Assembly: GCA_946699065.1 (NCBI GenBank)
Contig: CAMPDV010000213.1
Location: 124,001 to 188,000, forward strand
DNA length: 64,000 nt
Origin: Loxodes magnus
Taxonomy: Eukaryota; Ciliophora; Karyorelictea; Loxodida; Loxodidae
Direction of reading: 5' to 3'
Under the pieces are notes generated by a model. That model ran no database searches and was not told the DNA's origin. It saw nothing but the letters and a program-made list of their open reading frames with translations. The position numbers were made by a program, and so were the translations under genes. This document shows, piece after piece, positions 541 to 42,790 of this stretch. The first letter of the stretch is position 1. Every line of letters begins with the position of its first letter.

Positions 541-560
541 TAGGATTCTTTAAAAAAAAA

Positions 561-3060: not shown

Positions 3061-3081
3061 TAATAAATTTAAAAAATAAAG

Positions 3082-6575: not shown

Positions 6576-6589
6576 ATTTAATTAAATTT

Positions 6590-9235: not shown

Positions 9236-9339
9236 ACTAAAATTAATGTCACAATAAATCCTGAGTCTAGTTGATTTTAGTCATAAAATTTAAAAAGACT
9301 GCATCTTTAGTAGTAATAAGAAAGGATTTAAATAAACAT

Positions 9340-10860
9340 AATGAAAGTGATAAAAAAACCTACAAGATAAGATTTTAAATCTTAAATTGAATTTTATTAA
9401 TTAAAAGATTCAAGACTATCACTTACGAACTAGAATGAAATAACTACTAAATTTTAATTTTTTTCTGAATAAATTAAAATAATCAATTGCAACCAAAAGG
9501 CATGCTTGATATTTAAAAAATAATTAAGCTTTCAAGTAGTTACAGATTGGATATTGAACGTGATTTAACAAGTGTTTCTTAAGATAAAATAAAATAACAA
9601 AAGTTTTACAGAAGAATTAAATAATTATAGAATTCAGTGTTTCTAAATGAATAAAAAAGAAGTCACTAAAATTTAATTAATCAAAGTCTTAAATAAAAAA
9701 GCTGCTATTAAATCAGAAATGTACATGTCCAAAGGGGTTTCCAAAATATCTGCTTTGAACTTATAAATCTAAGAATTGCCCTTTTGAAAAAACGAAAAAA
9801 TAGAAATCCTTCTAGAACTACAAGTATTCAATGGCCTTTATAAAATTTAGATTGAAATATTCATGCAATAGTTTGAGATCTAAATTCTCAAAGTAGCATA
9901 CCTGTACACACTCTTTAAGTTTTTCAATTTCTTGATTATCTTAAATCAAAAATTTTCAGATGCGTTTATTTTTTATTTTCTTAGGAATATAAAAAATTGC
10001 TGTCTTTTTCTCCAACTTTGCAATATCTTAGATTGAATTTGCTGCTTCATTCACTACACTATTCAATAGGTATAAGTTTAAACCACAAAATTACAAAAGC
10101 ATTCATACTTTAGTCTCTTATAAACATTATCAGTCTAATCCTTTAAAGCTCTATCTGCTTAACTTCCCTTTTCTTAATTTAGATCATATTACCCTAATTT
10201 ATTTCTTATATCTCTAAGCTAAAATAAATCTAAAATATTAACTACCATAAAAAGCATTAAAGCTAAATTTTATTTTTAAATTAGTTTATTGATACTTATT
10301 AGCAAATCTCTTGTAAATAAAGCTTAGAATGAAATATATCGTATATTTAAAGGTTTAATGTATCTTGTTAGTTTATTAAGATACATAAATAAGAAGTATT
10401 ATACAGAATTAGGCTATCTTTAATTAAAGATACTTAGTCTAGTAATCTTAATAATTTATTAATTTAACTAGTAATGCTCTAATAAATAATCAATTAAATA
10501 CTTTAATGGATTTATTAACTCTGAGGCTAGTACTTTAAAGTTGTTTTTTGGTCAGTTTAAACTTGCTACTTTCAGTTTTTTATTACTTTTAATCCTTTAA
10601 ATATATACTTTAATTAAAATGAAACAAAACAAATTAAATTTTCCCTTAGATTATTAAAAATGTATAAAGAATGCTATATGGTCTAAGCTATTAATAGTAA
10701 TTTTAGTAAGAAGGCTAGCAAAGATGATTGAATATGATCAATAAGTTTATGATATAGTATTTGATGGGAAAAAGGGTTTTTATGCTTATGCATTGAATAG
10801 CTTTAATGCATATGATGCCATTTATTTTTTTAAGTGTCATTTTATTATTTTTATTTTAAA
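9340..10860 (+). other. Weak coding-like frame, function unknown
   Basis: Read with all stops as sense, one plus frame gives plausible protein-like stretches, for example KNEKIEILLELQVFNGLYK near 9800 and MIEYDQQVYDIVFDGKKGF near 10720. Only 3 of about 13 differences from the duplicate at 37.1-38.65 kb are silent in this frame, and the duplicate has 1-nt indels in A runs and near the GATTGAAATATT site. There is thus no sign of protein constraint. The last part (10720-10830) could be an upstream exon of the hydroxylase gene. I do not recognise a family. Confidence 0.2.
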
Positions 10861-11052
10861 GACTTTTTAAATACTTAATACTATTAATTTAACTATTTTC
10901 ATTAAAAAGGAAAAGCTCTAACGAGTATCCGCCTACATTTAGCTTCGAACAAATAAAATAAAAAAATTTATTAGCGTGGATCCATCTAAATCGGTATATC
11001 ACTCTATTTATAATCAAATATGAAAATTCAGAAGAAGAAGACTGATTACCTG

Positions 11053-11827
11053 ATGAACACAAGTGTATTCCTCTCATTGTATGTTATTGAAACTTATAAA
11101 AATCCAGAAATATCTAATTAAGAAGATATAAAGTAGATAGCACAGAATACCAACTGTTTTAAAGTATCTTCTCCTTGGGCAATGTGACTCATTTATTGGA
11201 TTGTTGACTTGGCTTCAATATCGTCGATCACTGCTTTCCTATATATCATTATTAAAGTTTTAGATAAAGATATATCTAACGATAGTTTCAAAAAGTGAAT
11301 AGATTCTATTTCAGTCAATATGTTGGTTTTATCTTTGATGCAAACGTTCATCAATTGAACTATCATATAGGGCATAACGAAAGTCACTACGGGTCGCACA
11401 TATTTTTAGTCTGTCATTCGTATGTTCTGTTATAGATGCTAGGTTTTTAACTTTGGTGGTATACATAGCATCACATAATATCAAATTTTTAAATCATTAC
11501 GGGCATTCATTTCATCACTAATGGTAAAAACCTGAAGATAAGATTGGAATAACTAATTTTGCATTCGATAACATAGTAAAAACTTATGTTTCTATGTCAA
11601 CTTTATTCTACCCTACACTAATATTTCCTATTAACTACTGGGCCAAAATATTTATATCATTAAGTCATAGGATGGTTGCCGTAATGTCACATTGGGATAA
11701 GTTCCCGTACAAATATCATCTCGATCATCATTATAAGATTATAGCTAACTATAGAACACTAATACCAACCTTCGACAAATTTTTTGGAACATATTACAGT
11801 CAAGAGAAAAAAGAGCACGACAAATGA
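11053..11827 (+). CDS. Fatty acid hydroxylase / sterol desaturase family membrane protein, copy 1
   Basis: Likely a membrane di-iron enzyme of the fatty-acid-hydroxylase superfamily (sterol desaturases, sterol C4/C5 oxidases, lipid hydroxylases) acting on a lipid in the ER membrane. From the ATG at 11053 the frame runs to 11419, skips a 16-nt intron (gtatgttctgttatag, 11420-11435) and continues to TGA at 11825-11827, giving about 252 residues. Hydrophobic segments fill residues 40-110. Histidine boxes follow: SHNIKFLNHYGHSFHHQW (about residues 135-152, containing H-x2-HH) and YHLDHH (about 216-221, H-x2-HH), then NYR and the family-typical FDKFFGT. Two in-frame TGA codons are read as Trp. In exon 1 three of four differences from copy 2 are silent, supporting the frame. 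An upstream exon near 10923-11070 (frame with NSEEEDWLP) is possible. The substrate cannot be told. Confidence 0.65.
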
Positions 11828-11971
11828 TAACTCTTTATAAAATCTTATTTAAAAATAAACGCTTTTTGTTTTCCTTTATTTTAACTTTTATTTTATTTAT
11901 TTTTCTCTAAAAATGTGAAATTTCTTTAAACCTGTTTCATCTGGGAAACTGGATAAAGAGAATCGTTTTAA

Positions 11972-12370
11972 AATTTTAGATATGTAGCGAGGCGTCATCT
12001 CTTTTAAAAAATCGAGAAAGAAAGTATACTACATCTTAACAAAACGTAAATTTCAGTGCTTCAGTATAAAAATGACTAATTATAATAATGTTTCAAATCT
12101 AGTCCTACTATTTTCAATCAAATAAAGATAAAAGTATCCATTCTTTAAATGCACATACTTGTGTTACCTCTTTGATATTTTTCATATCTATATCAACCTC
12201 AAGTTTTATAAATGTATTTTCTTAAAACTCTTTTCCGTTTTTACCGAAATATAAATCCCAGCTGGTATCACTATTAAAATTTAATTATTATATAAAACAA
12301 AATGCTAGTGATATGCAATTAATATGAGTTGAACGATGTGATAATCGAATTACTTTATAAAAGCATTGTA
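11972..12370 (-). CDS. Unknown protein fragment in a block identical between duplicates
   Basis: On the minus strand one frame reads convincingly as protein from 12370 down to about 12155, including HINCISLAFCF, SDTSWDLYFGKNGKEF and FIKLEVDIDMKNIKEV. It continues to about 11990 either directly or after a possible 51-nt GT...AG intron. All 399 bases are identical to 39785-40183 in the second duplicate. It is convergent with the hydroxylase gene, whose TGA is at 11827. I recognise no family. It may be the 3' part of a gene whose 5' part is degraded, since the sequence above 12370 differs between copies. Confidence 0.4.
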
Positions 12371-12412
12371 TGATTTAAATATCAGAAATATCTTAGATAT
12401 AAAAAAATCGAA

Positions 12413-12985
12413 AGAGAAGTTACTTTTAAATCAATGATAGATTTAAAAAATAACACCAGAGAAAACAAAGGTAAAGAAAATGTTTACTCTATGCTAGGTA
12501 AAGTTAAAAAAATAAAGAGCTGTAATAATTTAAATATCTTAGTCGTAATTTCGATCTATAAAACAGAGATCTTAAATTATGAATATCTTGATTTTTAATT
12601 TATATAAAATAGATCTTACATATCTCAGCTTATTTAAAATCGAATGCTTATTTATTTTTTGATTAAGATATTACTTAATTCCTTAAAGCAACATAAAAAT
12701 TTTTTAATAATTTTTTTTTCATATTTCCTTAGTTTGATTCACAGCTGTATACAATCTGAGACCTTTGAAATTATTTAATTCTAAAAATTATTGATTCCTT
12801 CAGACAATATTTTTATTTTGACTTCTATTTTTATATCAATTAGCTTTGCTTGGCTATCCTGTATTACCAAACAACGTAAGCTTTCTTATATCGATATTTT
12901 ATTTTATGATTTTCGCATGATTATAAACGTTTTAAGTAAAAACTCCTCATTACTATTTCTTGTTAGTGCAAATTTTTTTTAACTA
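12413..12985 (+). CDS. Putative membrane protein, unknown, copy 1
   Basis: A single frame with no TGA runs for about 190 codons. It starts REVTFKSMIDLKNNTREN and YSMLGKVKKIK (soluble part, with an internal ATG at 12434). It ends in two hydrophobic stretches around NIFILTSIFISISFAWL and SSLLFLVSANFF. The duplicate at about 40.23-40.80 kb has an extra A in an A run after the VKK codons and further indels in the hydrophobic part, so it cannot encode the same protein. No family recognised. The lack of TGA over this length and the charged N-terminal part favour a real or recently real gene. Confidence 0.35.
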
Positions 12986-13316
12986 TGACTGAATATGAAA
13001 AGTTTTTAGTTTAATATCTCTTTCATTTACTAAATTTCCTATTTATTTCGGAAAATAAAAATGTTCGAATATCTTTTTTAGTAGATTGTTAATTTACTAA
13101 ATTTTCATAGCATAAATCACCCAGTTTCTTCTTATCTTTGAACTTTAGATATTGCTTAATTTAAATCTGAGAATACTTCTAGCAAATTTTAGTATTTAAT
13201 TTTTAAATAATTCAAATTTTATCTTATAGAGCTGTAATTATAACTCTCTATTTCAATATAAAATGGAACTATAAATGAAAAGAAAATTAAAGGTATAATA
13301 TAAGACTTTTTGCAAA

Positions 13317-14790
13317 AATAAATTAAAATTAAAATTAAAAATTAAATGTTTGGCGATCTTGGAGATATTTCAACCTTTTCCCGCCAATTTCTAGATTGAT
13401 CTAGAAGCATAAAATAAAAGCTTGAAAATCTCTTCAACTCTTCTCCTTGCCATGCTTGTTGTTCTTGAATTCTTCTTTCACCTAGATACTAGATATCTTT
13501 TTTCTTGCAAATTTAACATATTTGTTATTATATAGTCTTTCTCTTTATAGTTTTAGTTGTTATTATATTTTCTTTTATTTTTTCAAATACTTCTACTAGT
13601 TTTAATATTCTTTCTTGAAATTGAGAAACTTCTAGCAACTTTTCCACAAATATGTTTGAGAATTACAGTAATAGTATCTTTTTGCTTGTCTTTTAGTTTA
13701 AATCTTGAGTTATTTAATTATTATTAGATTATTTCTTATTCTTTCAGTTTAATTTAATGGAGCAATTTGACCTGATTTTCTAATATTTTTCTAACTTGTT
13801 AATATGCTCCTTCTACTCTATTAATAGTTTTGAGTTTAACTGTTCTAGTCTTGTTAAATATTTCAAAATACGTTAAGGTCTCTTTCTTATGCCTTTGATC
13901 CAATTCTATCCTCTTTGCAAGTCAATTTTTCATCAACTTATTACTGTCTTTCTTCAATTTTTTGACTACTTCTTAGAGGCTCAACACCACTTTGATCAAC
14001 TAATTATAGCTTATTTATTATTATGTGGTGACATTTAAAATTCTGGGTTCATTTTATTTTTAGATTATTTCCTAGGCTTTTCTTCAGAGGTGGGAAACTC
14101 ATCCTGATGGGCGACTTTATGGTTCCCTTTTCCTGGTCCTAATCTTTCTAGGATGTCATTAACTCCTGTTTTTTTGAAGCCGCAAAGAATCCTTGTTTTA
14201 ACCCTGACATCTTTTTCTACGCAAAGGAAAGAGATGGAAAATTTTTATGTGATCGAGATAAGCAAAAGTTTTATAAGCGAAATTGAAGGAACTTTTAATT
14301 TTGAAAGTTATAGAAGTTTGTTTCATCTTTAAGAAGCATAAATATATTTAATATTTTCACAATAAGATTTTCTGTGACTCTTATCTTTATAAAAAAAAAA
14401 TATTTTACAGTCTTAGAAGAGAGCTTCATAACTAACTTCATTTGATCCTACTCTCTCCTAAACTAAAAGAATTGCGTAGAACTTCATAACATTTCAATGG
14501 TGCATTACTCTTTAATAAAGATTTTTAAAGCTAAATAATTATTACTGAAGTCTTGCAGAGGGCTAGCATTCTCTTATGAGTCTTGTCTTCTATAGGACCG
14601 TGAATGGAATGCTACCTTAATCTTAGTATCTGGCATCTTTCAACATTAACACCACTTGATGTCTTTTCAGTCTTGTCTTCTCTTAGCTTCTACCAAAATT
14701 CTTGTTCAGTTCTTCGCCCATGGGGTATTTCCTGATCCCAAAATTTTAATCAATCTCAGTTGTGGGATTGATCCTCCTGATTTAAAATAA
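13317..14790 (-). mobile_element. Gag-like retroelement, minus strand, copy 1
   Basis: The minus-strand unit ends (at 13317-13340) in a tail of repeated TTTTAA-type units, like the tails of the LINEs and of the Gag-only element at 24.5 kb. Its 5' part (14210-14790) is richer in GC than the surroundings and has no recognised gene. The words AAAATAAAT at both edges may be a target duplication but are weak in such AT-rich DNA. The duplicate copy (41163-41746) has lost the 5' half by a deletion of about 0.9 kb. Confidence 0.5.
13330..14210 (-). pseudogene. Gag-like coiled-coil protein, frameshifted
   Basis: The start ATG is at 14208-14210, followed by MSGLKQGFFAASKKTG and a charged region (HQDEFPTSEEKPRK). 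One frame then gives a long coiled coil (VEGAYQQVRKILENQ, HQIKLKEQEIIQQQL) between about 13980 and 13680. A second frame change leads to VSQFQERILKLVEVFEKI, then a degenerate knuckle region ICQICKKKDIQYLGERR and a tail ending RNWREKVEISPRSPN. The layout (short head, coiled coil, C-x2-C region) matches the intact ORF at 24563. At least two frame changes make it a probable pseudogene. The histidine of the knuckle is not visible. Confidence 0.5.
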
Positions 14791-15230
14791 ATAATGTATA
14801 ATAAATGAATATAAGATAAAATATTTTAACAATAATGTATTTAAATTTAAATTTTTACAAAAATATGAAAATTCTATTTTTAATTTTTAAATAAATAAAG
14901 AAAAAACATACTAGCTTTTCTATAAGTTTAATTTTCTCAATTAATTTACCAAAGTTTGTTTAAATCTTAAGTTTAAAAATTTTAGCATCTATCGAGTACA
15001 TATTTTTATGTAAAATAAAGACTTTTAGTAACTTAAAAAATGTATTTGAGATTAAATTAATTAAATTACATAATTAATTTATTTTCTTTTAAAAATCATT
15101 TCTTTAAAAACACGAGTATGAAAAAAGTTGATAATTATACAATAAAATAAACTTATATGATCTAAGTTTATCTCATTTACTTTGGTTAATTTATCTCTAT
15201 TTTTCTATATAAATTAATTAATTTAATTTT
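14791..15230. other. AT-rich spacer, nothing recognised
   Basis: A near-identical stretch occurs at 41750-42130 in the duplicate, joined there directly to the truncated Gag element. No coding signal or RNA motif seen. Confidence 0.4.
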
Positions 15231-15238
15231 AGAGCACG

Positions 15239-15265
15239 TTACACCTCGTTGGTGCGCAACTCTTT
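15239..15265 (+). promoter_or_regulatory. Hairpin 5' of the CCHC gene
   Basis: The sequence GTTACACCTCGTTGGTGC followed by GCAAC folds with CACC/GGTG inner and GTT/AAC outer pairs. It lies about 20 nt upstream of the ATG at 15282 and is kept in the duplicate at about 42144-42169 with one change just outside it. It could be a 5' UTR or promoter element. Confidence 0.3.
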
Positions 15266-15281
15266 CAATATTAATATAAAA

Positions 15282-15947
15282 ATGTTCTCATTATTCATGT
15301 TATTCATTCTATTCATTCAGTGAATCACATCAGCTTTTCCAAGTGGAAAATCGACTTATTATTAATAAAAAAAATGGAAAATTACTAGTAAAAAATCTCT
15401 TCTAAAAAGGAAGCATCTTAGTCAAGTTATGATTAATAAAAAAATACTTTAAAAACTTCAAGTCATGCAATTAGAAAATTTTAAGCATTTAAGAACTGTA
15501 CAAAAAATTGAAAGAAAAAATAAACACCTGATGATTAATTCATAAGAGAAAACATTGAATTAAAAAGCTAGGAATTATCAGGATAGAATAATTAGAAACA
15601 AATTTAATCAATTCACAGAGTTAACTGAAAGCATATTACTACAAAAAATGTAGATGAATAATCCGATGGATGTAAAGTGACAGCCTACAACAAATAATAT
15701 TCCCGATTGGAAAATAATAAGATGTTGATATTGCAAGTGACCAGGGCACAAAACTAGAAGCTGCTTACAATTCTAATTAAAATAAAAGACAAAAGTAGAG
15801 AACTAATTGGAAAATATTTTCAGAATCTATTGCAATCAATAAGGTAAATTATACAGGAAAAAATACTCCAGCTAAACAAAGAAGCAGTAAGCCTTAAAAT
15901 ATTATGATTTTATTTTTGATGTATATTAATTTCTTTTTGATTTATGA
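15282..15947 (+). CDS. Gag-like protein with CCHC zinc knuckle
   Basis: One frame runs from the ATG at 15282 to a TGA at 15945-15947, about 221 residues with no frameshift. It has a hydrophobic N-terminus (MFSLFMLFILFIQW), a basic Q/K/N-rich amphipathic middle, NNPMDVKWQP at about residues 127-136, and then a textbook retroviral-type knuckle RCWYCKWPGHKTRSC (C-x2-C-x4-H-x4-C). Two of the Trp residues in that knuckle, and others upstream, are encoded by TGA. By analogy such proteins bind nucleic acid. No protease, RT or integrase follows. It may be a Gag-only element, a LINE ORF1 relative or a domesticated Gag. The hydrophobic N-terminus is unusual for Gag, so translation may start later. Confidence 0.6.
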
Positions 15948-24530: not shown

Positions 24531-24546
24531 TTAATTAGAAATACAA
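24531..24546 (+). repeat. Target-site duplication, left
   Basis: ttaattagaaatacaa, identical to 25485-25500. The uninterrupted site is present once in the second duplicate near 50441-50456. Confidence 0.9.
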
Positions 24547-25484
24547 GGATAAAAAAAAAAATATGGTAGAAGGTTTCAAAAAGGGCTTCTATACCACCTC
24601 TTTCTAAGCTAAAAAGGGAGAGAGGAAGCAGGAAACCTAAATTTCTAAACACCACACGTCATCTTCCAAAACCAAACCTTCTTCTTAAACCATATAGGAG
24701 CAACTCTAAACAACACCCCCCAGACAACCCTAGAAACACTAACATGCAACAATATCGACTGAGGACCTTCCCAAGAAGCAAAAGATTAGTAACTTTCAGG
24801 CCTAGATTAGGACATTCAACCCCTACATGGACCTCGGAGATCTCAATAAAGAACAAATCTTAGGAATGACGAAGGAGGAAATGGCTAAGCTTATCTTAGC
24901 ATTAATAGGAAAAAATAAAGATCTGGAAAAACAGATTGAAGAACTAGCTTAAGAACAGCAAGAACATTTAGAAGATGAGGAAACCCATGCTCCTAGAAAC
25001 TTAAACCAGGCTGCAATGAATATCAGAATTGACGAATTCGATAGGCAGCTGGAACAATTATACGAATCGAATGAAAATATTCATATCAAATTGGAAAAAT
25101 TAGAGACAAGTGTAAAATAATAGGCTATGCAATCTATCCCAATGGAGATCGAATAAGAGAATAATAAGCCAATTGAGTAAACTAAAGAGAAATATTTTAG
25201 GAAAAAATGTTACATCTGCAGGAGAACAGACCACCTATGGAGACGATGCTGGAAGAGAAAGGAGATTTAATAGAAAATATGGAATGACCTAACCTAATTT
25301 TACCCAACCAGGAATGGAGAAATTTATAAGAAGAAAGCAAGCTATATGAAGAGACAACCATTCCGAAAACTTGACAGTGAAGGGAGGAGAAGACCACCTA
25401 GAGATCAAGTTCCTATTGGTTGGATAGGGAAGTAGGAAGCTTTTAAGTAGACGATCCTTCTTTAACACTTTAATTTAATTTAAT
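24547..25484 (+). mobile_element. Gag-only non-LTR-like element with TSD
   Basis: This 938-bp insertion is flanked by a perfect 16-bp target duplication and absent from the otherwise matching site in the second duplicate. It starts with GGATAAAAAAAAAAA and ends in repeated TTTAA units, like the tails of the local LINEs. It has no LTR, terminal inverted repeat or polymerase. The 16-bp TSD plus short-repeat tail point to target-primed reverse transcription, presumably by a LINE enzyme in trans. Its base composition is clearly less AT-rich than its surroundings. Confidence 0.85.
24563..25432 (+). CDS. Gag-like coiled-coil CCHC protein, intact
   Basis: An uninterrupted frame of 290 codons from the ATG at 24563 to the TAG at 25433 (or 295 codons to the TAG at 25448). 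The order is a basic Ser/Thr/Pro-rich head; MDLGDLNKEQILGMTKEEMA; a coiled coil (LIGKNKDLEKQIEELAQEQQ, FDRQLEQLYESNENIH); SIPMEIEQEN; then a zinc knuckle CYICRRTDHLWRRC (C-x2-C-x4-H-x4-C) at about residues 213-226; and a basic arginine-rich tail. This matches a nucleic-acid-binding Gag/ORF1 architecture. Gln is written TAA/TAG several times. Every Trp is TGG and TGA is absent from the frame through the end of the element, so termination must use TAG/TAA or read into the flank. Confidence 0.85.
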
Positions 25485-25500
25485 TTAATTAGAAATACAA
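25485..25500 (+). repeat. Target-site duplication, right
   Basis: ttaattagaaatacaa, matching 24531-24546. Confidence 0.9.
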
Positions 25501-27204: not shown

Positions 27205-29100
27205 AGATTGGATATGTCAACATAAATGGATTAGCAAGTAAACTATATAAAATAGAAAAATTCATAAGAGAAAATAGTATTGACATTTTTTCAATTAATG
27301 AAACTTGGTAAAAACAAGATTTCCATCCAATATTAATATAAGGTTATAGGACTTATTACAAAAATTCAGGAAAAGGAGGAATGTATGTCTAGTTATTAAA
27401 GAAGAACTCAGTAGTACTGAAGAAACTAATATAATTGATGTATCATAGAATCAATTTATCATAGCCAAACTAGATAATATATTTATTACGTCCAGTTACA
27501 TGTCAGATAATAGCTAACTTGAGAAATTAAAAGACCAAGCATATGACTATATTAATTTGCTATTTAATCAATTCCCAAATAACCCACATATTTTAATGGG
27601 AGATTTCAATGCTCCTCTATAAGATTATGGAGATAATCCTAATAATGACTAAGATAATACAAACAGATTCTCGGAATTTCTTATTCAGAAGTATCTTGAA
27701 ATAATAAATAATATGAACAGCAACACTTGCATACATAAAGGAACATATTTTATGTATTGCAATGACTATATTGTAATAAACAATCACCTGAATATTAATC
27801 AATTTGAAAACTTCTAGGCTCATTATAACTAACTATTACTGATCACATACCAATTACGGTAAATTTTCTCTTCAACACAATTCTCTATTAGGACATAATT
27901 ACCTAAAGAAAATATAAAATTAACAGGCTGCAAGACTCTATTGACAGATAAAAACATTAAGAATCTTTTTTTGAAACTTATAATGAATTTTTCAAATTGA
28001 TAGGAATAATTTAGAGGATTAATACTAATGTATTAAACGCAATATATAATATAATCCAGATGAAATATTAGGTTCATTTATTCCAGACCCTAAATATAAT
28101 AAACTTACAAAAGAACTCATAAAGAAGTATATTGAAGCTAAAAGAGCTAATAAAGTATATAAAGAAATTCACGCGTAGTTTGGAAGAATTAATTAATAAG
28201 TAATTCCCTTTTTAAGAACAATTGGTAAACAGGATATTATTATAGAGATTAAGTAACAAGACTATCTGAATGTTATGAAATAGATATTAATAATTAGGAA
28301 TATAATAGTAGCTTTAATACTTTTACAAAATATATTAAAAGTAAGATTCAGCATAAATTTTATGAAGAAACTATTAAAAGACTTAAAAGGATGCCCACTG
28401 CAAAGTTATTTATAGAATAATTAGAATAATAATAATAATTCCCGTAAATTACCTATCCAAAACTAAATAAATAGTATCGAAAAGAAATAATTAGTATATA
28501 CAAACTCAGAACCTAAAGTTACAACTTTTGCAAGGATTTTTAAGACAAACATTATTTAGTTGAGAATTCCATTGTATGTGTGGAGATTTGATTAATTTGA
28601 ACATATTCTGGAATGCGATTGCTATATAGATATGCGAGAATGGTTAAAAGCAAAAATTGGAAAATGCGACATTAGAAATTAATAACCTATGACCAAATTA
28701 TATCAATTAATTTACAAAAAACAAATTAGAATACATTGATCTGTAAATTAAAATTTTCCATAGGATGTTACTTAAAAGGAGATTAGAATTATTCTAATTA
28801 GAAAAAAACTTATAATAAGAAAGTTCTGAGACTAAGGGTAAAGAAGCGAAAGAGCAAGATAAAGATGAAGAGAATAATGAAAATAAGGAAGGAAAAGAAG
28901 AACAAGAAGAAAAAGAAGAAAAAGATGAGCAAGTGGAAGATTAGAATGAATAAAATGATAACGAAGATAATATAACTGAAGAAGAAGATGAATTAGAAAG
29001 TGTTTGAGTTGAAAAACTTTTAAAAACATTATAATATCTTTAATTGAAGGAAGTAATTCCAACAATGAAAAGATGTCTCAAGACTCTTTTAGCTAAATTT
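27205..29100 (+). pseudogene. LINE-B ORF2 lacking reverse transcriptase
   Basis: The endonuclease domain is at 27205-27870: GYVNINGLASKLYKIEKF, FSINETWQKQDF with Trp as TGG where the first LINE has TGA, and ILMGDFNAPLQDYG. The linker follows (GSFIPDPKYNKL, FGRINQQ near 28190). The sequence then jumps to the C-terminal part (NKQYRKEIISIYKLRTQ, CMCGD at about 28580) and a Glu/Lys/Asp-rich tail at 28830-29000. In the first LINE these points are separated by about 1.8 kb that holds the RT. Additional frame changes exist. The product could not reverse transcribe. Confidence 0.8.
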
Positions 29101-31924: not shown

Positions 31925-32385
31925 AAGTTTAAAAAAATAAAGCAAAAAGGAAATTTTTACTTCTAAATGAAGATGCTAAAGAAATATTTTCACATACTAA
32001 GAAAATTAAAAACCCTAAAAAAATAAATTAAATGAACTTTAATTAAGAAATCAAAAATAATCCATTGATTCATGCGAGAATTAATTTTTAATAAAAATTT
32101 TAATCTAACTAAATAATATAATTCTCAGTAATTAAAAAATAGATAAAAATTTTATTAAAATATTTATTTTAAAAGCTTTATACTGTAGATAACTTTAGTA
32201 ACTTGAGTATAATATAAGATAGTATTTAGGAAATTAAAGATTATCAACTCTCATATTTATAAGGATTTTATCTTTTTACCATACAAGAAATACAAGAATT
32301 TATAATTGAAATTATGAATGGAAAAGCAGCTGGTCCAGACAGAATAAAAAGTGAACTTCTGAAATATGGTGGATAATATTTGTTT
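31925..32385 (+). pseudogene. LINE ORF2 fragment (start of RT)
   Basis: Parallels the first LINE at about 4145-4530. It reads NGKAAGPDRIKSELLKYGG at its 3' end without the frameshift present in the first LINE. It is cut off after the GG and followed by a run of A and the inverted Gag-like unit. Confidence 0.75.
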
Positions 32386-32389
32386 AAAA

Positions 32390-33243
32390 AAAAAGTTAAA
32401 AAGCTTTGTTAAAGCCTTAGTAGTCAGCCATCTAACCTATTCTATCAGCTTGTCTCCATTAGTTTGTCTTGAATTTCTACTAGACTTAGTTAGGCAGTGT
32501 AGCACTTCATTAGCGCACCATCCTTTAATATTCTGAATAGTTTTCATCTTGAATGTAGCGTTCCTAATTATTTCTCCAAGGATTAAGATTTGAATTAAAG
32601 AATTTTTTTCTATACATTTTTCCGCTTTATGTTGGATATATCCTAAATAGTTTTCTAAAAATATCTTATTTATTCTTTCTTTAAATTTCGCTTAGTTAGT
32701 AGCAGTATTTTCATTGGTGTTATTTATTGCACACGTAGCATTTTATTCTTCTTTTAAACTATTATTCCTGTAACACTTATTTAATTTAAATTTACTACTT
32801 ATTTTAAATAAACGTTTACTGTTTATTTTAATTTGAGGCTTCATTTTCTATTTCCATAGGATCTGATTAATTCTGTTAAATCGAAAATGGCGTACCTGAA
32901 TTTATTATTAAATTTAAAGAATTCTTTGTTCCAGTTTGTTTTCTATTTCTTATTATGATTAATATTGTTTCTCAAGTAAAGACGTTATTAGTTTTTCTAA
33001 TTGTTTTACTTTATCAGTGAGGTATCTATTTTTAAACATAAACTCTTTTAATGACTTAGATAATATTTCTATTTGAGTTTGTGTCGGAAGTTTTTTTAGT
33101 TCTGGATTTCCAAGTGGTTAATGTTCGTCATATCAATCATATTTCTCACTTTCACTCATTGTAATTATTTCGTTTTTTTATTTTTTAGAGAATTTTCCAG
33201 TTTAAATGTTTTGTTCAAAGTTCTGTTATTTCTTAGAAGCCAT
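32390..33243 (-). pseudogene. Gag-like coiled-coil protein, minus strand
   Basis: The ATG is at 33241-33243. The reading runs MASKKQQNFEQNIQTGKF, ESEKYDWYDEHQPLGNPEL, then a coiled coil (TDKVKQLEKLITSLLEKQ), SDPMEIENEASNQNKQQ (in a shifted frame), KERINKIFLENYLGYIQHK, and TIQNIKGWCANEVLHCLTK near the end. The PMEIE words match the intact ORF at 24563. The expected knuckle after them is not visible and two frame changes are needed, so this is a relic of the same family. It lies between a LINE fragment and the E block. Confidence 0.5.
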
Positions 33244-33254
33244 TTTATATTTAA

Positions 33255-34070
33255 TCATAATATTAAAAAATTTTAAAGCGAATTTTTTCATTTACTCAAA
33301 AAGAATTTCAAGATCAAAAAATGTTCTTTCTTCAAAACATTAACAATAATTTTTTTGTCATTTCAAAAATAAATTACCTTATCAAAAATATATTTTTAAA
33401 TCAAAAATAAAAAAATTTTGCAAAAGATTTTCAAATCAAAAAATTTTCCTAAAAAACAAAAAAATGTTTTTATTTTTACAAAATACCATTTCAACAAACA
33501 AGATTTCCAAATTCTATTTTAATATTAAAAAAATTTTTATTCCTATTATTTTCTCAAAAATCTTTTATATTTGGAATTTTTTCTTGAAATTTTATTCCTA
33601 TTTAGGATTTTTTATCCCAAAATAATTAAATTTATTCCTTCCCAGAAATATTTATAAAAAAAAATTTCAAAAAAATTCTTTAAAAAATTCAAAAATTTTT
33701 AAAATTAATTTCCAAATTTTATTTCCAAAACGATTTTAGATAACTATTTCCAAAACGATTTTAGATAACTATTTTCAAAATTATTTTAGAAACGCTTTTC
33801 AAAGAAATTTTAAAACTACTTTCAAAATTTTTATTCCTATTTTAAAATTTTTTATTCTTAAATAAAAAAAATTATTCCTAATTTGAATTTTTATCCCGAA
33901 ATAATTAAATTTATTCCGTCCCAGAAATCTTTGGAAGTGCAAAACGCTGAGAAAAAAACAAATTTTTCATTTTCATGAAATTAATGCTCTAAACCTGAAA
34001 GATAAATGAAATTTATTTTCAGAAAAATTAATTTTCAAATCGGAAACATAAAATATTAAACATAAAAATT
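33255..34070 (-). repeat. Subterminal repeat block E, inverted (unit 2 left edge)
   Basis: Inverted form of 22330-23345. The CCCGAAATAATTAAATTTAT and TCCGTCCCAGAAATCTTTGG words occur at about 33893-33950, and a worn unit at about 33610-33655. Together with arm A2 it forms a left terminal inverted repeat of about 3.7 kb, matched by 46110-49250. Confidence 0.6.
33721..33790. repeat. 25-bp tandem repeat
   Basis: ATTTCCAAAACGATTTTAGA plus TAACT repeats twice perfectly and then a third time with changes. Confidence 0.85.
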
Positions 34071-34189: not shown

Positions 34190-37020
34190 AAAATTTAATT
34201 TAAAATAAATAAATAAATAAAATACTTAATTAAATTTTTTAATTAATAATCAAAATTATAAACTAACTTTAACCTTATAAATAATATTTTAACTACTTCA
34301 CAAAAAAAATGAAAATTTATACTCAACTTGAAATTTTTACAAAATCTAAAAATAAATCTATAAAATTTTATAGCATAAAATTAAACTTAAACTTATTATA
34401 CGTCTTCATTTAACAAAATTATATTTTAAATATTTTTAAACATTACCACTTTAAATCAATATATCTCACTAATTTATATAACCTATATTACTCAACCTTT
34501 TTTTAAACCAAGAATATTTAAAAATATGCAACCTTTTAATAAATATATAAAGCAAACACTTCATAAAACTAAAAACATAATTAACATTAAACATTCATTT
34601 AAATGAATAACCAATATCTTATATCTTTAATCGTAAAATTTAATTAAGTCAAACAACAAGTTACTCAACTCGAAATCCTCCACTTTCTTATCGTCTTGTC
34701 AAATCCTCCCGATACCAACCATCTATTGTCAACACTCAATGCTATAGAATATATTCATCCAATATGCCCTTATAAAGTCTAGATACACTCACCCTTATCA
34801 AAGTTTCAAATCTTGATTTTATTATCAATTGAACCAGAAAATATTACACTTGAATCAACACTTAACTGAATACTACGTACATCACCTGTATGACCTTAAA
34901 GAGTACGATTACACTAACCAGAAGAGAAGTCCCATAACTTAATAGTACTGTCATAAGAACCAGATATTATATACCTATTATCCTTAGACACTATTACCTA
35001 TAAAACTGAGTCTGAATGCCCAGTAAGAGTTCGCACAAGCTGACCAGTCTAGAAATCCCAAATCTTTATAGTTTTATCGTAAGATCCGGATATAATATAT
35101 CTAGAGTCATAGGAGAGTACTACCGATCTAACTACATTAGTATGTCCCGTTATAGTTCTTTGGAGAGCACCATTGTGGAAAATTCAGATCTTTATAGTTT
35201 TGTCATCAGATCCTGATACTATATAGCTAGAGTCAGGGGAGATTACTACAGATCTAACTGAGGAAGTATGTCCCGTTAAATTTCTTATGAGAGAACCAAT
35301 CTATAAATTTCAGATCTTTATGGTTTTATCTTCAGATCCTGATACGATATAGCTAGAGTCTGAGGAGAATATTACCGAGTTAACATCAGAAGTATGTCCT
35401 GTTATAGTTCTTTGGAGAGTACCTGTCACGAAATTCCAGATCTTTATTGAATTTTCAGGATATTCTGAACCTGATACAATTCAATTCAGGTCACTTGATA
35501 TGGCTACCGATAAAACAAATGTTTCAGTTAGGACTTAGTCTAAAAAATATTAAAGAAATACCTTTACTTTGGTCATAACTGATCTTATTTATAAGCTTTT
35601 AGTAGCATAAGTTAGGCAGAATTTCATACTTAAAATGAAGTAGAGATATTTTTCCTAGAATATGACTTCTCGCTCTTAAGAGTTTTCTTAAAAAAATGCT
35701 TTTAGTAAATTGCTTTTCTTTTTTCTCCATTTATTTTTTCTCCATTTTAATTTTTATAATTTACTTCAATAAATATTTAATAAAATAACTAAATAAATTT
35801 TACTTACTTAATTTAAATATAATTAAACAATTAAATTATTTATTAAGCATACTTATAAATATCTTCTTAAATATTTATTTAAAAATTCCACTTTTACCTT
35901 AAAACAAGACAAGATATTAAACTAATAGTGTACAAACTTTTACAATTTTAATTATTTTATATCTTTTTACTTTTAAATAAAAGGATAAATATTATATCAA
36001 AAGTTTATAACGAATAATTATATCCTTATTATAATAATTTTAATATGTATCTATTAATTACAACTTATTTGTGCTTTAAATCAAAGACTCTTAATAAAAA
36101 ATCTTTTTTCATTGTAACCCCTTTAAATGATAAATAAAATATTGCCATTTTTTAAAGCTACTGTTATTAATTATTATCTTTCACTTACATTTAATTTAAA
36201 AAATATTTATTTAAGCTTTTTACTAATTAAAAGAATGAAATAAAGTAAGTTTCTTATTAATTAGTTTGAATAAATATTAAAAAACATAATTATTTAAAAT
36301 AAAGCATTTTTAGAATTTATAAGATAAATTCTTTTAAGTGCCCACTTTCTTACTAGCATTTCATTAAAACTTTTTACTTATAAAGGTCTCTCTTAAAATA
36401 ATAAACTAATATAATTTATTATAATGTTGATTCTAAGCAAAATATATAAATGTAATAAATATAAGTAGTAGAAAGTAAATATTTAAAGTAACTATAAATG
36501 TTGTATCACTAATTATATCTTACAATTATTAAATAGTAATATTTAATTTTATTATTAAAATAAGCTTTAATATGTTTAATTATGTCTATTAAATACTTAA
36601 TATTTTATCCTTTTAGCTTTATTAGTTATTAATTAATTTCTCTTTAATTAATAAAGATATTAGATTAGTTATAATTAATACATTTAGATAACTTTCCCTT
36701 TTTATAGCAAACTAATATTATATTTATTTTATTTTTGTAATTATCATTTCTAATTAATAATACCTAAATTATTCTAGATTATTTAAAGATAAAAACTTAA
36801 TTCTATTATTCTATACAAATCTAAGAAACATAGTTACCACTATTAATACTTTCTTTATTAAAATAACTTGTTTTATATTAAGAAAACTATAATCTTTTAA
36901 GAAAGAAAACATATTTTAAATATATTATATTATTATTTTCTGAATTAATACAAAGAGTAAACTTAACATAGTATGTTTCTTTGTAATAAACATGAGATAA
37001 TATAAGTATTAGATTAGTTA
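34190..37020 (-). repeat. Inverted-repeat arm A, copy 2 (left)
   Basis: Same sense as 6590-9235 and inverted relative to 46110-48850. It carries WD40 copy 3 and its flanks. No other gene seen in the arm. Confidence 0.8.
34665..35745 (-). CDS. WD40 seven-blade propeller protein, copy 3
   Basis: 352 residues. ATG at 35743-35745 (second in-frame ATG at 35728-35730), 22-nt intron at 35540-35561, terminal TGA at 34665-34667. I followed the frame through all seven blades without a shift. Typical pieces are TIKIWDFQTGQLVRTLTGH and YIISGSYDSTIKLWDFSSG. Several WD-motif Trp codons are TGA and several Gln are TAA/TAG. The third blade from the N-terminus (SLIRNLTGHTSSVRSVVIS) differs from copy 2, which shows sequence exchange among blades. 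Same leader and splice site as the other copies. Likely functional as a protein-interaction propeller. Confidence 0.85.
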
Positions 37021-38850
37021 ATATAAGCTATTTGAAACTAAAATTAATGTCACAATAAATCCTGAGTCTAGTTGATTTTAGTCATAAAATTTAAAAAGAC
37101 TGCATCTTTAGTAGTAATAAGAAAGGATTTAAATAAACATAATGAAAGTGATAAAAAAAACCTACAAGATAAGATTTTAAATCTTAAATTGAATTTTATT
37201 AATTAAAAGATTCAAGACTATCACTTACGAACTAGAATTAAATAACTGCTAAATTTTAATTTTTTTCTGAATAAATTAAAATAATCAATTGCAACCAAAA
37301 GGCATGCTTGATATTTAAAAAATAATTAAGCTTCCAAGTAGTTACAGATTGGATATTGAACGTGATTTAACAAGTGTTTCTTAAGATAAAATAAAATAAC
37401 AAAAGTTTTGCAGAAGAATTAAATAATTATAGAATTCAGTGTTTCTAAATGAATAAAAAAGAAGTCACTAAAATTTAATTAATCAAAGTCTTAAATAAAA
37501 AAGCTGCTATTAAATCAGAAATGTACATGTCCAAAGGGGTTGCCAAAATATCTGCTTTGAACTTATAAATCTAAGAATTGCCCTTTTGAAAAAACGAAAA
37601 AATATAAATCCTTCTAGAACTACAAGTATTCAATGGCCTTTATAAAATTTAGATTAAATATTCATGCAATAGTTTGAGATTTAAATTCTCAAAGTAGCAT
37701 ACCTGTACACACTCTTTAAGTTTTTCAATTTCTTGATTATCTTAAATCAAAAATTTTCAGATGCGTTTATTTTTTATTTTCTTAGGAATATAAAAAATTG
37801 CTGTCTTTTTCTCCAACTTTGCAATATCTTAGATTGAATTTGCTGCTTCATTCACTACACTATTCAATAGGTATAAGTTTAAACCACAAAATTACAAAAG
37901 CATTCATACTTTAGTCTCTTATAAACATTATCAGTCTAATCCTTTAAAGCTCTATCTGCTTAACTTCCCTTTTCTTAATTTAGATCATATTACCCTAATT
38001 TATTTTTTATATCTCTAAGCTAAAATAAATCTAAAATATTAACTACCATAAAAAGCATTAAAGCTAAATTTTATTTTTAAATTAGTTTATTGATACTTAT
38101 TAGCAAATCTCTTGTAAATAAAGCTTAGAATGAAATATATCGTATATTTAAAGGTTTAATGTATCTTGTTAGTTTATTAAGATACATAAATAAGAAGTAT
38201 TATACAGAATTAGACTATCTTTAATTAAAGATACTCAGTCTAGTAATCTTAATAATTTATTAATTTAACTAGTAATGCTCTAATAAATAATCAATTAAAT
38301 ACTTTAATGGATTTATTAACTCTGAGGCTAGTACTTTAAAGTTGTTTTTTGGTCAGTTTGAACTTGCTACTTTCAGTTTTTTATTACTTTTAATCCTTTA
38401 AATATATACTTTAATTAAAATGAAACAAAACAAATTAAATTTTCCCTTAGATTATTAAAAAGGTATAAAGAATGCTATATGGTCTAAGCTATTAATAGTA
38501 ATTTTAGTAAGAAGGCTAGCAAAGATGATTGAATATAATCAATAAGTTTATGATATAGTATTTGATGGGAAAAAGGGTTTTTATGCTTATGCATTGAATA
38601 GCTTTAATGCATATGATGCCGTTTATTTTTTTAAGTGTCATTTTATTATTTTTATTTTAAAGACTTTTTAAATACTTAATACTATTAATTTAACTATTTT
38701 TATTAAAAAGTAAAAGCTCTAACGAGTATCCGACTACATTTAGCTTCGAGCAAATAAAATAAAAAAATTTATTAGCGTGGATCCACCTAAATCGGTATAT
38801 CACTCTATTTATAATCAAATATGAAAATTCAGAAGAAGAAGACTGATTAC
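37020..38850 (+). other. Duplicate of the weak coding region 9240-11050
   Basis: Nearly the same sequence as copy 1, with 1-nt indels at an A run (near 37150) and at GATTAAATATT (near 37650) and mostly non-silent differences. Treated as non-coding or decayed. Confidence 0.3.
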
Positions 38851-38853
38851 CTG

Positions 38854-39635
38854 TGGATCACAAGTGTACTCCTCTCATTGTATGTTTTTGGAACTTATAA
38901 AAATCCAGAAATATCTAATTAAGAAGATATAAAGTAGATAGCACAGAATACCAACTGTTTTAAAGTATCTTCTCCTTGGGCAATGTGACTCATTTATTGG
39001 ATTGTTGACTTGGCTTCAATATCGTCTATCACTGCTTTCCTATATATCATTATTAAAGTTTTAGATAAAGATATATCTAACGATAGTTTCAAAAAGTGAA
39101 TAAATTCTATTTCAGTCAATATGTTGGTTCTATCTTTAATGCAAACGTTCATCAATTGAACTATCATATAGGGCATAACGAAAGTCACTACGGGTCGCAC
39201 ATATTTTTAGTCTGTCATTCGTATGTTCTGTTATAGATGCTAGGTTTTGAACTTTGGTGGTATACATAGCATAGAGCATCACATAATATCAAATTTTTAA
39301 ATCATTACGGGCATTCATTTCATCACTAATGGTAAAAACCTGAAGATAAGATTGGAATAACTAATTCTGCATTCGATCACATAGTAGAAACTTATGTTTC
39401 TATGTCAACTTTATTCTACCCTACACTAATATTTCCTATTAACTACTGGGCCAAAGTATTTATATCATTAAGTTATATTATGGTTGCCGTAATGTCACAT
39501 TGGGATAAGTTCCCATAAAAATATCATCTCGATCATCGTTATAAGATTATAGCTAACTATGGAACACTAATACCAACCTTCGACAAATTTTTTGGAACAT
39601 ATTACAGTCAAGAGAAAAAAGAGCACGACAAATGA
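38854..39635 (+). pseudogene. Fatty acid hydroxylase family, copy 2, decayed
   Basis: Duplicate of the gene at 11053. The ATG is lost (CTGATGAAC is CTGTGGATC here). A 7-nt insertion (ATAGAGC after CATAGC, near 39270) shifts the frame before the first histidine box. The third box reads YHLDHR instead of YHLDHH. Yet it keeps residues that look more ancestral than copy 1 elsewhere (FDHIVE, NYGTL). The 16-nt intron is preserved. It almost certainly encodes no active enzyme. Confidence 0.75.
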
Positions 39636-39784
39636 TAACTCTTTATAAAATCTTATTTAAAAATAAACGCTTTTTGTTTTCCTTTATTTTAACTTTTATT
39701 TTATTTTATTTTATTTTTCTCTTAAAATGTAAAATTTCTTTAAACCTGTTTCAACTGGGAAACTAGATAAAGAGATCGTTTTGA

Positions 39785-40183
39785 AATTTTAGATATGTAG
39801 CGAGGCGTCATCTCTTTTAAAAAATCGAGAAAGAAAGTATACTACATCTTAACAAAACGTAAATTTCAGTGCTTCAGTATAAAAATGACTAATTATAATA
39901 ATGTTTCAAATCTAGTCCTACTATTTTCAATCAAATAAAGATAAAAGTATCCATTCTTTAAATGCACATACTTGTGTTACCTCTTTGATATTTTTCATAT
40001 CTATATCAACCTCAAGTTTTATAAATGTATTTTCTTAAAACTCTTTTCCGTTTTTACCGAAATATAAATCCCAGCTGGTATCACTATTAAAATTTAATTA
40101 TTATATAAAACAAAATGCTAGTGATATGCAATTAATATGAGTTGAACGATGTGATAATCGAATTACTTTATAAAAGCATTGTA
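39785..40183 (-). CDS. Unknown protein fragment, identical to 11972-12370
   Basis: All 399 bases match copy 1. The minus-strand frame includes SDTSWDLYFGKNGKEF and FIKLEVDIDMKNIKEV. Immediately above 40183 the sequence is LNHYNAFYKVIRLSHR here, one base longer than in copy 1, which changes the upstream frame. No family recognised. Confidence 0.4.
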
Positions 40184-40225
40184 ATGATTTAAATATCAGA
40201 AATATCTGAGATATAAATAAATCAA

Positions 40226-40800
40226 AAGAGAAGTTACTTTTATATCAATGATAGATTTAAAAAATAACACCAGAGAAAACAAAGGTAAATAAAATGTTTA
40301 CTCTATGCTAGGTAAAGTTAAAAAAAATAAAGAGCTGTAATAATTTAAATATCTTAGTCGTAATTTCGATCTATATAGCAGAGATCTTAAATTATGAATA
40401 TCTTGACTTTTAATTTATATAAAATAGACCTTATGTATCTCAGCTTATTTAAATTGCTTGATTGCTTATTTATTTATCTTTTGATTAAGATACTGCTTAA
40501 TTCCTTAAAGCAACATAAAAATTTTTTAATAATTTTTTTCATATTTCCTTAGTTTGATTCACAGCTGTATACGATCTGAGACCTTTAAAATTATTTAATT
40601 CTAAAAATTATTGATTCTTTCAGACAATATTTTTATTTTTATTTCTATTTTTATATCAATTAGCTTTGCTTGGCTTTCTGTACTACCAAACAACGTAATC
40701 TTTCTTTTTGAATATCGATATTTTATTTTATGATTTTCGCATGATTATAAACGTTTTAAGTAAAAACTCCTCATTACTATTTCTTGTTAGTGCAAATATT
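40226..40800 (+). pseudogene. Putative membrane protein, copy 2, frameshifted
   Basis: Counterpart of 12413-12985. One extra A after the VKK codons and several indels in the hydrophobic half break the frame. Confidence 0.35.
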
Positions 40801-41162
40801 TTTTAACTATGACTGAATATGAAAAGCTTTTTAGTTTAATATCTCTTTCATTTACTAAATTTCCTATTTATTTCGGAAAATAAAAATGTTCAAATAATTC
40901 TTTTTTAGTAGATTGTTAATTTGCTAAATTTTTATAGCATAAATCACCCAGTTTCTTCTTATCTTTGAACTTTAGATATTGCTTAATTTAAATCTGAGAA
41001 TACTTCTAGCAAATTTTAGTATTTAATTTTTAAATAATTCAAATTTTATCTTATAGAGCTGTAATTATAACTCTCTATTTCAATATAAAATGGAACTATA
41101 AATGAAAAGAAAATTAAAGGTATAATATAAGACTTTTTGCAAAAATAAATTAAAGTTAAAAT

Positions 41163-41746
41163 TAAAAATTAAATGTTTGGCGATCTTGGAGATATTTCAA
41201 CCTTTTTCCCGCCAATTTCTAGATTGATCTAGAAGCATAAAATAAAAGCTAGAAAATCTCTAAAACTCTTCTCCTTGCCCATGCTTGTTGTCCTTGAATT
41301 CTTAAATCACCTAGATACTAGATATCTTTTTTCTTGCAAGTTTAACATATTTGTTACTATATAGTCTTTCTCTTTATAGTTTTAGTTGTTACTGTCTCTT
41401 CTTTTATTTTTCCAAATACTTCTACTAGTTTAAATATTCTTTCTTGAAATTGAGAAACTTCTAGCAGCTTTTTCACAGATATATTTGAGAATTACAATAT
41501 TAACATCTTTTTACTTGTCTTTTAGTTGAAATCTTGAGTAATTTTTATCTTCAATTATTATTAGATTATTTCTTATTCTTTCAGTTTCATTTAATGGAGC
41601 AATTTGATCTTATTTTCTTATATTTTTCTAACTTGTGAATCAACTCTTTCTACTTTTATTGCTAGTTTTGAGTTCAGCTGTTCTAGTCTTGCTAAATATT
41701 TCAAAATACGTTAAGTTCTCTTTCTTATGCTTTGGTCTAATTCTGT
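41163..41746 (-). pseudogene. Gag-like element, minus strand, 5'-truncated
   Basis: Matches 13317-13915. The remainder, including the start codon, is deleted and the break joins straight to sequence equivalent to 14826. The TTTTAA-type tail is kept at the 41163 end. Confidence 0.6.
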
Positions 41747-42186
41747 ATTTAAATTTAAATTTTTACAAAAATATAAAAATTCTATTTTTAATTTTTAAAT
41801 AAATAAAGAAAAAACATACTAATTTTTCTATAAGTTAAATGTTCTCAATTAATTTACCAAAGTTTGTTTAAATCTTAAATTTAAAAAGATTTGCATCTAT
41901 CGACTACATATTTTTACGTAAAAATAAAGTTTTTAGTAATTTAAAAAATTTATTTGAGATTAATTAATTAAACGACAAAATTAATTAATTTTTTTAAAAA
42001 TCATTTCTTTAAAAACACGAGTATGAAAAAAGTTGATAATTATACAATAAAATAAACTTATATGATCTAAGTTTATCTCATTTACTTTGGTTAATTTATC
42101 TCTATTTTTCTATATAAATTAATTAATTTAATTTTAGAGCATGTTACACCTCGTTGGTGCGCAACTCTTTCAATATTAATATAAAA

Positions 42187-42790
42187 ATGTTCTCATTATT
42201 CATGTTATTCATTCTATTCATTCAGTGAATCACATCAACTTTTTCAAGTGGAAAAACGACCTATTAATAATAAAAAAAATGGAAAATTACTAGTAAAAAA
42301 TCTCTTCTAAAAAGGAATCATCTTAGTACAGTTATGCGTAATAAAAAATAATTTAAAAACTCTAAACCATGCAATAAAAAATTTTAAGCTATAAAGAACT
42401 GTACAAGAAATTGAAAGAAAAAATGAAAACTTGATGAGTAATTCAAAAGAGAAAACATTGAAAATGAAAAGCTAAGAATTATATGAATAGAATAACTAGA
42501 AAAAAAATTTAATCAAATCGTAGAGCTAACTGAAAGCATATTACTGCAAAAATTTAGATGAATGATCCTATGATTGTAAAGAGAAAGCCTAAGGAAGATT
42601 ATATTCCCGAATGGAAATCAAAAAGATGTTAAAAATTAAAGCGACCTAAGCAAAAGTTAGAAATTGTTTACATATCAAATGAAAAAAAATAAAGTAGAGA
42701 ACTAATAAGAAACAATCTTGAGGATTTTTTGAAAATAAGAAGGTAAATTAAACAGGAAAAATAACTCAAAATAAACAAAGAAATTATTAA
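42187..42790 (+). pseudogene. Gag-like CCHC gene, copy 2, knuckle lost
   Basis: Counterpart of 15282-15947. The start and hydrophobic head remain, but the sequence diverges strongly and shifts frame. The knuckle CWYCKWPGHKTRSC has become CQKLKRPKQKLEIV, with three of the four zinc ligands gone. The upstream hairpin is preserved. Confidence 0.65.

Follow-up and report, generated by a model that had tools for sequence, protein, structure and literature searches.

To our knowledge, only a few non-autonomous retroelements retain a selected protein without a polymerase, and those described so far have been regarded as offshoots of a single LINE. HeT-A, found at Drosophila telomeres, is a non-LTR element encoding a Gag without reverse transcriptase (RT), the RT coming from elsewhere, while HAL1 (half-L1) of mammals has a poly(A) tail. 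The latter is described as a non-autonomous LINE derivative encoding ORF1p only (PMC5753468). Among ciliates, the REP non-LTR elements of Tetrahymena are presented as LINE-like, with two ORFs when functional (PMC6564038). These are autonomous, unlike the elements reported here. The macronuclear assembly of Loxodes magnus comprises 706 Mbp (Seah et al. 2024, PMC11441545), and the Loxodes retroelement families described in that article are 5-6 kb long and carry an RT, unlike the short RT-less units analysed here; the section on them describes no ORF1-only families. In this work, a window of 64,000 nucleotides of the L. magnus genome (contig CAMPDV010000213.1, positions 124,001 to 188,000 of the forward strand) was analysed, and a total of 705,730,643 bases of the genome were searched. 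An insertion in this window is best explained, with a probability of roughly 0.8, as a full-length non-autonomous ORF1-only non-LTR retrotransposon, for which RT and endonuclease would be supplied in trans by a LINE. A first-pass annotation of the window had considered that most non-autonomous elements carry no ORF; HAL1 and HeT-A are precedents of LINE derivatives that do. Moreover, HeT-A is targeted to chromosome ends, whereas the Loxodes copies are interspersed and flanked by target-site duplications (TSDs).

The net insertion, which belongs to a family here called gag1, spans 938 bp on the forward strand (24547-25484). It is flanked by a 16-bp duplication, TTAATTAGAAATACAA, the left copy lying at 24531-24546 and the right copy, with the same letters, at 25485-25500. 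A single copy of this target was found at 50438-50453 in the second segmental duplicate of the window, where the site is uninterrupted and the flanks show 95.4% and 96.2% identity to those of the insertion. The 3′ tail, (TTTAA)4 at 25469-25488 (+), overlaps the duplicated target and differs in length among copies, as does a short A-rich leader at 24547-24562 (+), for which the 5′ ends of 20 copies were compared. The boundary comparison between the duplicates bears out the insertion, its TSD, its TTTAA-repeat tail and its empty site as the first-pass annotation had given them. The G+C content of the insert was 36%, compared with 17-28% in 2-kb windows of the region. Furthermore, the insertion is hosted by the 5′ part of a LINE (LINE-1 copy B, 23657 to about 24546, forward strand), which is 75% identical to positions 550-1433 of copy A of the same LINE, and endonuclease pieces of LINE-1 appear downstream of the insertion at 27326-28193. 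Copy A extends over about 550-6590 and encodes an APE-type endonuclease at 3195-4133 (+) (Pfam Exo_endo_phos_2, E 3.7e-11) and an RT at 4805-5263 (+) (Pfam RVT_1, E 1.6e-13), and further LINE-1 pieces lie elsewhere in the window. As a correction to the first-pass annotation, the window does carry LINE endonuclease and RT genes, and the insertion itself lies within a LINE copy. Between the two duplicates, the identity was seen by eye to shift abruptly (6580-13907 vs. 34192-41744, and 14836-15883 vs. 41744-42782), as after gene conversion. About 929 bp (13907-14836, opposite 41744) are present in one duplicate only and may correspond to a deletion in the other copy; this segment was rejected as a second young insertion, since no TSD was seen.

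In L. magnus, TGA is described as the sole stop codon, which can also encode tryptophan (PMC11441545). With TAA and TAG read as Gln, an open reading frame was found at 24563-25480 (+), with no in-frame TGA inside the element, and the frame continues into the flank until 25624. The uninterrupted ORF noted at first is TGA-free across the insert, as proposed, but it exits into the flank, and its length tells little here: the window contains 37 TGA-free stop-to-stop frames of at least 300 codons, and one such frame arose in 4.6% of 1000 mononucleotide-shuffled versions of the insert. The putative protein begins with the head MVEGFKKGFYTTS (24563-24607, forward strand), which resembles the start of an abundant autonomous LINE (MVSFKKGFYTTSS). 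Long, coiled-coil-like helices were predicted for residues 104-190 (24872-25132, forward strand) by AlphaFold2 from the single sequence, where the pLDDT was about 52-78, against a mean of 51 overall; the coiled coil first proposed is thereby weakly suggested. The proposed PMEI motif was located at 25139 and the CCHC zinc-knuckle motif, CYICRRTDHLWRRC, at 25208-25249 (+) as an exact match to C-X2-C-X4-H-X4-C. In an alignment of four gag sequences, C216, C219, H224 and C229 were invariant, together with several other residues. Two Pfam families gave sub-threshold matches, zf-CCHC_4 with E 0.02 and zf-CCHC with E 0.078, in either case in one of the four members, and neither family matched the gag1 protein of the window insertion. 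No RT family was found by Pfam in the gag1 ORF, the whole unit having only 938 bp. Regarding more distant relatives, neither the gag1 protein nor the four-sequence alignment had a match at E 0.001 among 5.8 billion proteins, the gag1 protein gave nothing below E 0.5 against solved structures, Rfam gave no match at E 1 for the element and five loci, and the RNA folds predicted for both element ends were no better than those of shuffles.

A DNA search of the genome gave 1641 first-look candidates, of which the best 40 were scored and were thereby selected for length; apart from the window itself, the scored matches (39) had 927-948 bp and 99-100% identity. In 20 of these best-scored copies, read with their flanks (matches of 923-937 bp), a flank word of 8-18 bp was shared in each case, and TTTAA-type repeats of variable length formed the tail of all 20, followed by a short A run in three of them (L009, L015 and L021). 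A 35-base pattern of the 5′ end, allowing at most two mismatches, occurred at 402 places in the genome, while a pattern of the 3′ end occurred at 647, the reversed-pattern control giving 0 for both. The first 30 places with an exact 5′ end comprised 19 gag1 copies (96-99% identity), six copies of a subfamily gag1b (83-84%, about 960 bp) and five partial loci sharing only the first ~90-140 bp with gag1. The 25 gag1 and gag1b loci were delimited units of 0.92-0.97 kb with flanks sharing 10-21 bp, and four of the five partial loci belonged to another family, gag2, with 15-18-bp duplications and units of 0.92-1.35 kb. Consequently, 29 of the 30 loci were delimited units of 0.92-1.35 kb, which are too short for an RT, so that copies normally followed by an RT, considered earlier as a sign of an internally deleted LINE, were not what this sample contained. 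The remaining locus (L043) is not delimited and was rejected as a bounded copy, with only a 10-bp word found in a 1000-base search. Moreover, 40 of 41 gag1 and gag1b copies, the one in the window included, shared a flank word of at least 10 bp (L009-L058, minus five repeated or same-place copies and five partial ones). For comparison, 400 mismatched flank pairs gave such a word in 23 cases, with a maximum of 13 bp. Hundreds of copies exist genome-wide, in agreement with the family suggested at first.

Target duplications of variable length and sequence and a simple-repeat 3′ tail are features of non-LTR (TPRT) retroelements, and an ORF1-type protein without RT in a short bounded unit, as seen at 29 of the 30 loci, is HAL1-like. 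Units of full length, delimited by TSDs and sharing their 5′ end, would likewise be produced if a host (domesticated) gag gene had its mRNA repeatedly reverse transcribed by LINEs, the insertions being dead processed copies; near-neutral decay (private N:S ratio at 0.85 of the neutral one) and the short A run after the tail in a few copies would also suit such an origin. However, such an origin is very unlikely, given the TTTAA-repeat tails in the 20 copies read, the several families, each with its own copies, plus the mosaics between two of them, a 5′ head resembling that of a LINE, and the absence of the terminal TGA and short 3′ UTR of a normal Loxodes gene.

The occurrence of the patterns along the element, from 5′ to 3′, was 402 (5′ end), 399 (~290), 449 (CCHC), 593 (~795) and 647 (3′ end). 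This rise toward the 3′ end fits 5′ truncation, as a rough gradient in which the patterns vary in length, mismatch limit and subfamily reach (that of the 5′ end covering gag1, gag1b and gag2, and that at ~290 covering gag1 and gag1b). Among 100 exact 3′ ends listed, 33 had a partner among the 98 exact 5′ ends listed, the distance being 696-876 bp in 32 of these pairs, and 67 were unpaired, partly because 5′ ends with mismatches do not figure among the exact ones. Within contigs C1-C273, an exact pattern 96 bp upstream was present in 55 of 83 exact 3′ ends (25 of 28 paired vs. 30 of 55 unpaired). The 25 unpaired 3′ ends without it may be mutated or short copies, or may belong to a longer element sharing the last ~90 nt.

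Along the first ~360 bp, the subfamilies gag1 and gag1b had 98-100% identity; beyond this point the identity was mostly 60-88%, with a near-identical tail, so their alignment has the appearance of a mosaic, as template switching would give. Both gag1b and gag2 share the layout of gag1, namely a start codon no more than about 16 nt from the 5′ end, a length of ~0.9 kb, a CCHC motif, a TSD and no RT. A gag2 copy (L048) was about 420 bp longer than its relatives and had a 15-bp duplication at its two ends. An older member of a second ORF1-only family, gag32, lies at 32381-33257 (-), where its CCHC region was matched by tblastn within the window (E 1.6e-4). Its layout looks like that of gag1, although no TSD was seen, and its motif has one residue fewer between the second C and the H than C-X2-C-X4-H-X4-C. 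An 875-bp match at 93% identity was found in the duplicated loci L027/L028, and in four places (the window, L028, L029 and the flank of L059) the flanks diverge, by eye, a few nucleotides before ATGGCTTCTAAG. The proteins of gag1b and gag32 matched each other with E 7.8e-13, and those of gag1, gag2 and gag32, all in short form, were 26-29% identical. Furthermore, an older relative with a CCHC-like motif and TGA at two positions was recognized by eye at 15281-15900 (+), and also at 42.1-42.8 kb, and a probable decayed relative with a MSGLKQGFFAASKKQ head was weakly discerned, also by eye, at 13000-14200 (-). Among the decayed relatives first proposed, tblastn retrieves that of 32.4-33.26 kb, while those of 15.3-15.9 and 13.0-14.2 kb come from reading by eye, and part of the seeming decay of the 15.7-kb and 32.5-kb relatives is sense TGA, since this codon also encodes Trp. 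In particular, TGA aligns with TGG of relatives (HL-TGA-RKC in gag1b vs. HLWRRC in gag1), and 150 listed RT matches of the genome contain 3-9 in-frame TGA codons each. A single genome seems to hold several ORF1-only families whose proteins have diverged; recent copies are numerous, and two of the families form a mosaic.

Selection was studied over 285 codons in 41 copies (five repeats dropped), with a neutral N:S ratio of 2.44. Of the private changes, 124 were nonsynonymous and 60 synonymous (0.85 of the neutral ratio); the corresponding counts were 12 and 12 for shared polymorphisms and 56 and 43 (0.53) for fixed differences between gag1 and gag1b. Fixed and private changes did not differ significantly in this respect (Fisher P 0.09). 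In the diverged 3′ half that includes the CCHC motif, the Nei-Gojobori method gave a dN of 0.19 and a dS of 1.36-1.54 between gag1 and gag1b, that is, a dN/dS of 0.12-0.14 in six of six gag1b copies (147-149 codons), a ratio that is approximate because dS is near saturation, and still far below 1. As judged from these codon comparisons, the source lineages of gag1 and gag1b were under purifying selection, with single copies decaying nearly neutrally. This selection may have operated while the ORF was carried by the short form, or else in a long form not encountered here. The main ORF was intact in 17 of the 20 best-matching copies (the insertion in L017 falls in the tail), while 13 of the 19 gag1 copies found by their exact 5′ end were frameshifted (three of the 13 being duplicates of one insertion) and six were intact; frameshifts in single copies are as expected after insertion. 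The first-pass annotation would have given up its reading if dN/dS were near 1 and most copies frameshifted: the ratio between subfamilies departs from that expectation, whereas the frameshifts in gag1 copies agree with it.

Such frameshifts, together with the lack of a stop in gag1, would also be found if the ORF were unselected and open only through the youth of the copies, the element being a SINE-like passenger. With duplicates counted, 13 of 46 copies, from both subfamilies, have C5 in place of the C6 run at 24716-24721, and this common -1 change might reflect frameshifted copies moved in trans. However, since the run is a homopolymer and the C5 carriers share none of the substitutions scanned, recurrent slippage or assembly error is as likely as mobile frameshifted copies, and the shared frameshifts were rejected as proof of trans-mobilisation. 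An unselected ORF is unlikely in view of the dN/dS over 147-149 codons, the TGA of gag1b opposite the TGG of gag1, and the CCHC and other residues invariant in the four sequences. How an ORF1-type protein earns selection without an RT of its own becomes testable in these families.

With hundreds of copies and no copying enzyme of its own, the element most likely spreads with the enzymes of longer mobile elements, and we infer that a LINE RT is the one borrowed. A search for RVT_1 in the genome gave 3403 first-look candidates, and all 150 that were scored exceeded the cut-off. Tandem arrays of RT domains, with a period of 2,504 or 2,532 bp, were observed at G000:C5131:5395-26349 and G000:C20:2028-7877, and these are either head-to-tail LINE pieces or an assembly artefact. 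For LINE-1, no CCHC motif was seen by eye in the first ORF, the five gag proteins used as queries (those of gag1, gag1b, gag2 and gag32, and a probably out-of-frame piece for the 15.7-kb relative) did not match copy A with an E of 1 or less, and the 3′ end has a looser TTTAA-like tail, loosely similar to that of gag1. A second LINE, LINE-2, is represented by 30 copies of one family (L059-L088), its 5′ end being read in one copy (L089). Its start, AAAAAATGGTTAGCTTCAAGAAGGGTTTTTATACCACC, resembles the gag head, both in DNA (23/26 nt with gag1, E 1.2e-4; 37/47 nt with the gag2 copy L037, E 3e-6) and in protein (9/9 residues with gag1, E 0.18; 51% over 35 residues with gag2, E 0.031). By eye, the codon differences in this head are silent except at the S/EG position, so it looks coding. 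Moreover, gag2 weakly matched the CCHC region of the LINE-2 ORF1 (28% over 46 residues, E 0.072). The 3′ end of LINE-2, seen in 17 of the 30 copies, consists of a GC-rich hairpin-like stretch and (TTTA)n, unlike gag1. That stretch was not found in the window at up to three mismatches, while a reverse-strand sequence like it was noticed by eye at 15225-15262. The GC-rich part of 13907-14836 also resembles, by eye, a repeat downstream in L051 that terminates with a LINE-2-like stretch plus a TTTAT-type repeat and is possibly a SINE of LINE-2.

The longer LINE with this ORF1 that had been envisaged was not found in LINE-1 or LINE-2, the abundant LINE-2 sharing mainly the N-terminal head. While HAL1 derives from L1, gag1 has a TTTAA-repeat tail and gave no sequence relatives among the proteins searched. 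Neither a parent nor any other autonomous LINE encoding this ORF1 was encountered, so that gag1 is not assigned a HAL1-type origin. Nevertheless, an autonomous LINE with the same ORF1 may exist or have existed recently, the short form being its ORF2-deleted by-product and selection acting in the long form. This is a possible, though doubtful, explanation, for which the near-identical N-terminal head of LINE-2 and the weak gag2 match in the CCHC region speak, together with the description of HAL1 as an L1 derivative encoding only ORF1p (PMC5753468). In addition, dN/dS is silent on where selection acted, and some 3′ ends are unexplained. On the other hand, 29 of the 30 loci with an exact 5′ end are delimited short units, the gag proteins had no match in LINE-1 copy A at E 1 and weak ones in LINE-2, and families as diverged as gag1, gag2 and gag32 all occur in the short form.

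For a non-autonomous ORF1-only element served in trans, in the manner of HAL1 or HeT-A, the element RNA would be translated into a helical protein with a zinc knuckle, and this Gag protein would most likely coat its own RNA. One of the LINEs of the genome would then provide RT and endonuclease, and these would use a nicked site for priming on the TTTAA-type 3′ tail, the RNA being thereby copied into a new location. Target duplications of about 8-21 bp would result, and 5′-truncated copies would probably also arise. A missing stop codon is odd for a gene under selection such as gag1. Of the 36 gag1 copies with the CCHC motif in frame (duplicates included), 33 lacked a TGA between this motif and the point where the piece read stops; in the other three, the TGA falls in the flank (L016) or is private (L054 and L055). 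No TGA was present in the last 47 codons of gag2 (four of four pieces), and gag32 had no terminal stop by reading of its translation, while in four of the five gag1b copies matched a TGA lies 10 codons upstream of where the piece read stops. Since Loxodes 3′ UTRs are described as usually short (median 41 bp, PMC11441545), an expected stop is absent in three of the four families, which poses an unusual translation question in a genome with only a context-dependent stop. In a highly speculative and very unlikely version, a long-lived guild of ORF1-only families would be selected for its own protein, without an autonomous carrier. As the frame exits the 3′ end without TGA, the ribosome would stay on the RNA tail, and the new Gag would be tethered to its own RNA beside the priming site, giving cis-preference.

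Lastly, other repeated sequences and genes were observed in the window. A 126-nt unit, repeated in both direct and inverted orientation, makes up five related arrays, at 7.0-7.7, 20.9-21.8, 34.6-35.5, 47.4-48.3 and 58.3-59.2 kb, and the one of the five that was tested by Pfam (7003-7461, reverse strand) corresponds to WD40. Two copies of a fatty-acid-hydroxylase-like gene (PF04116) were located at 11339-11824 (E 8.2e-6, below the cut-off) and at 39009-39632 (E 2.4e-11).
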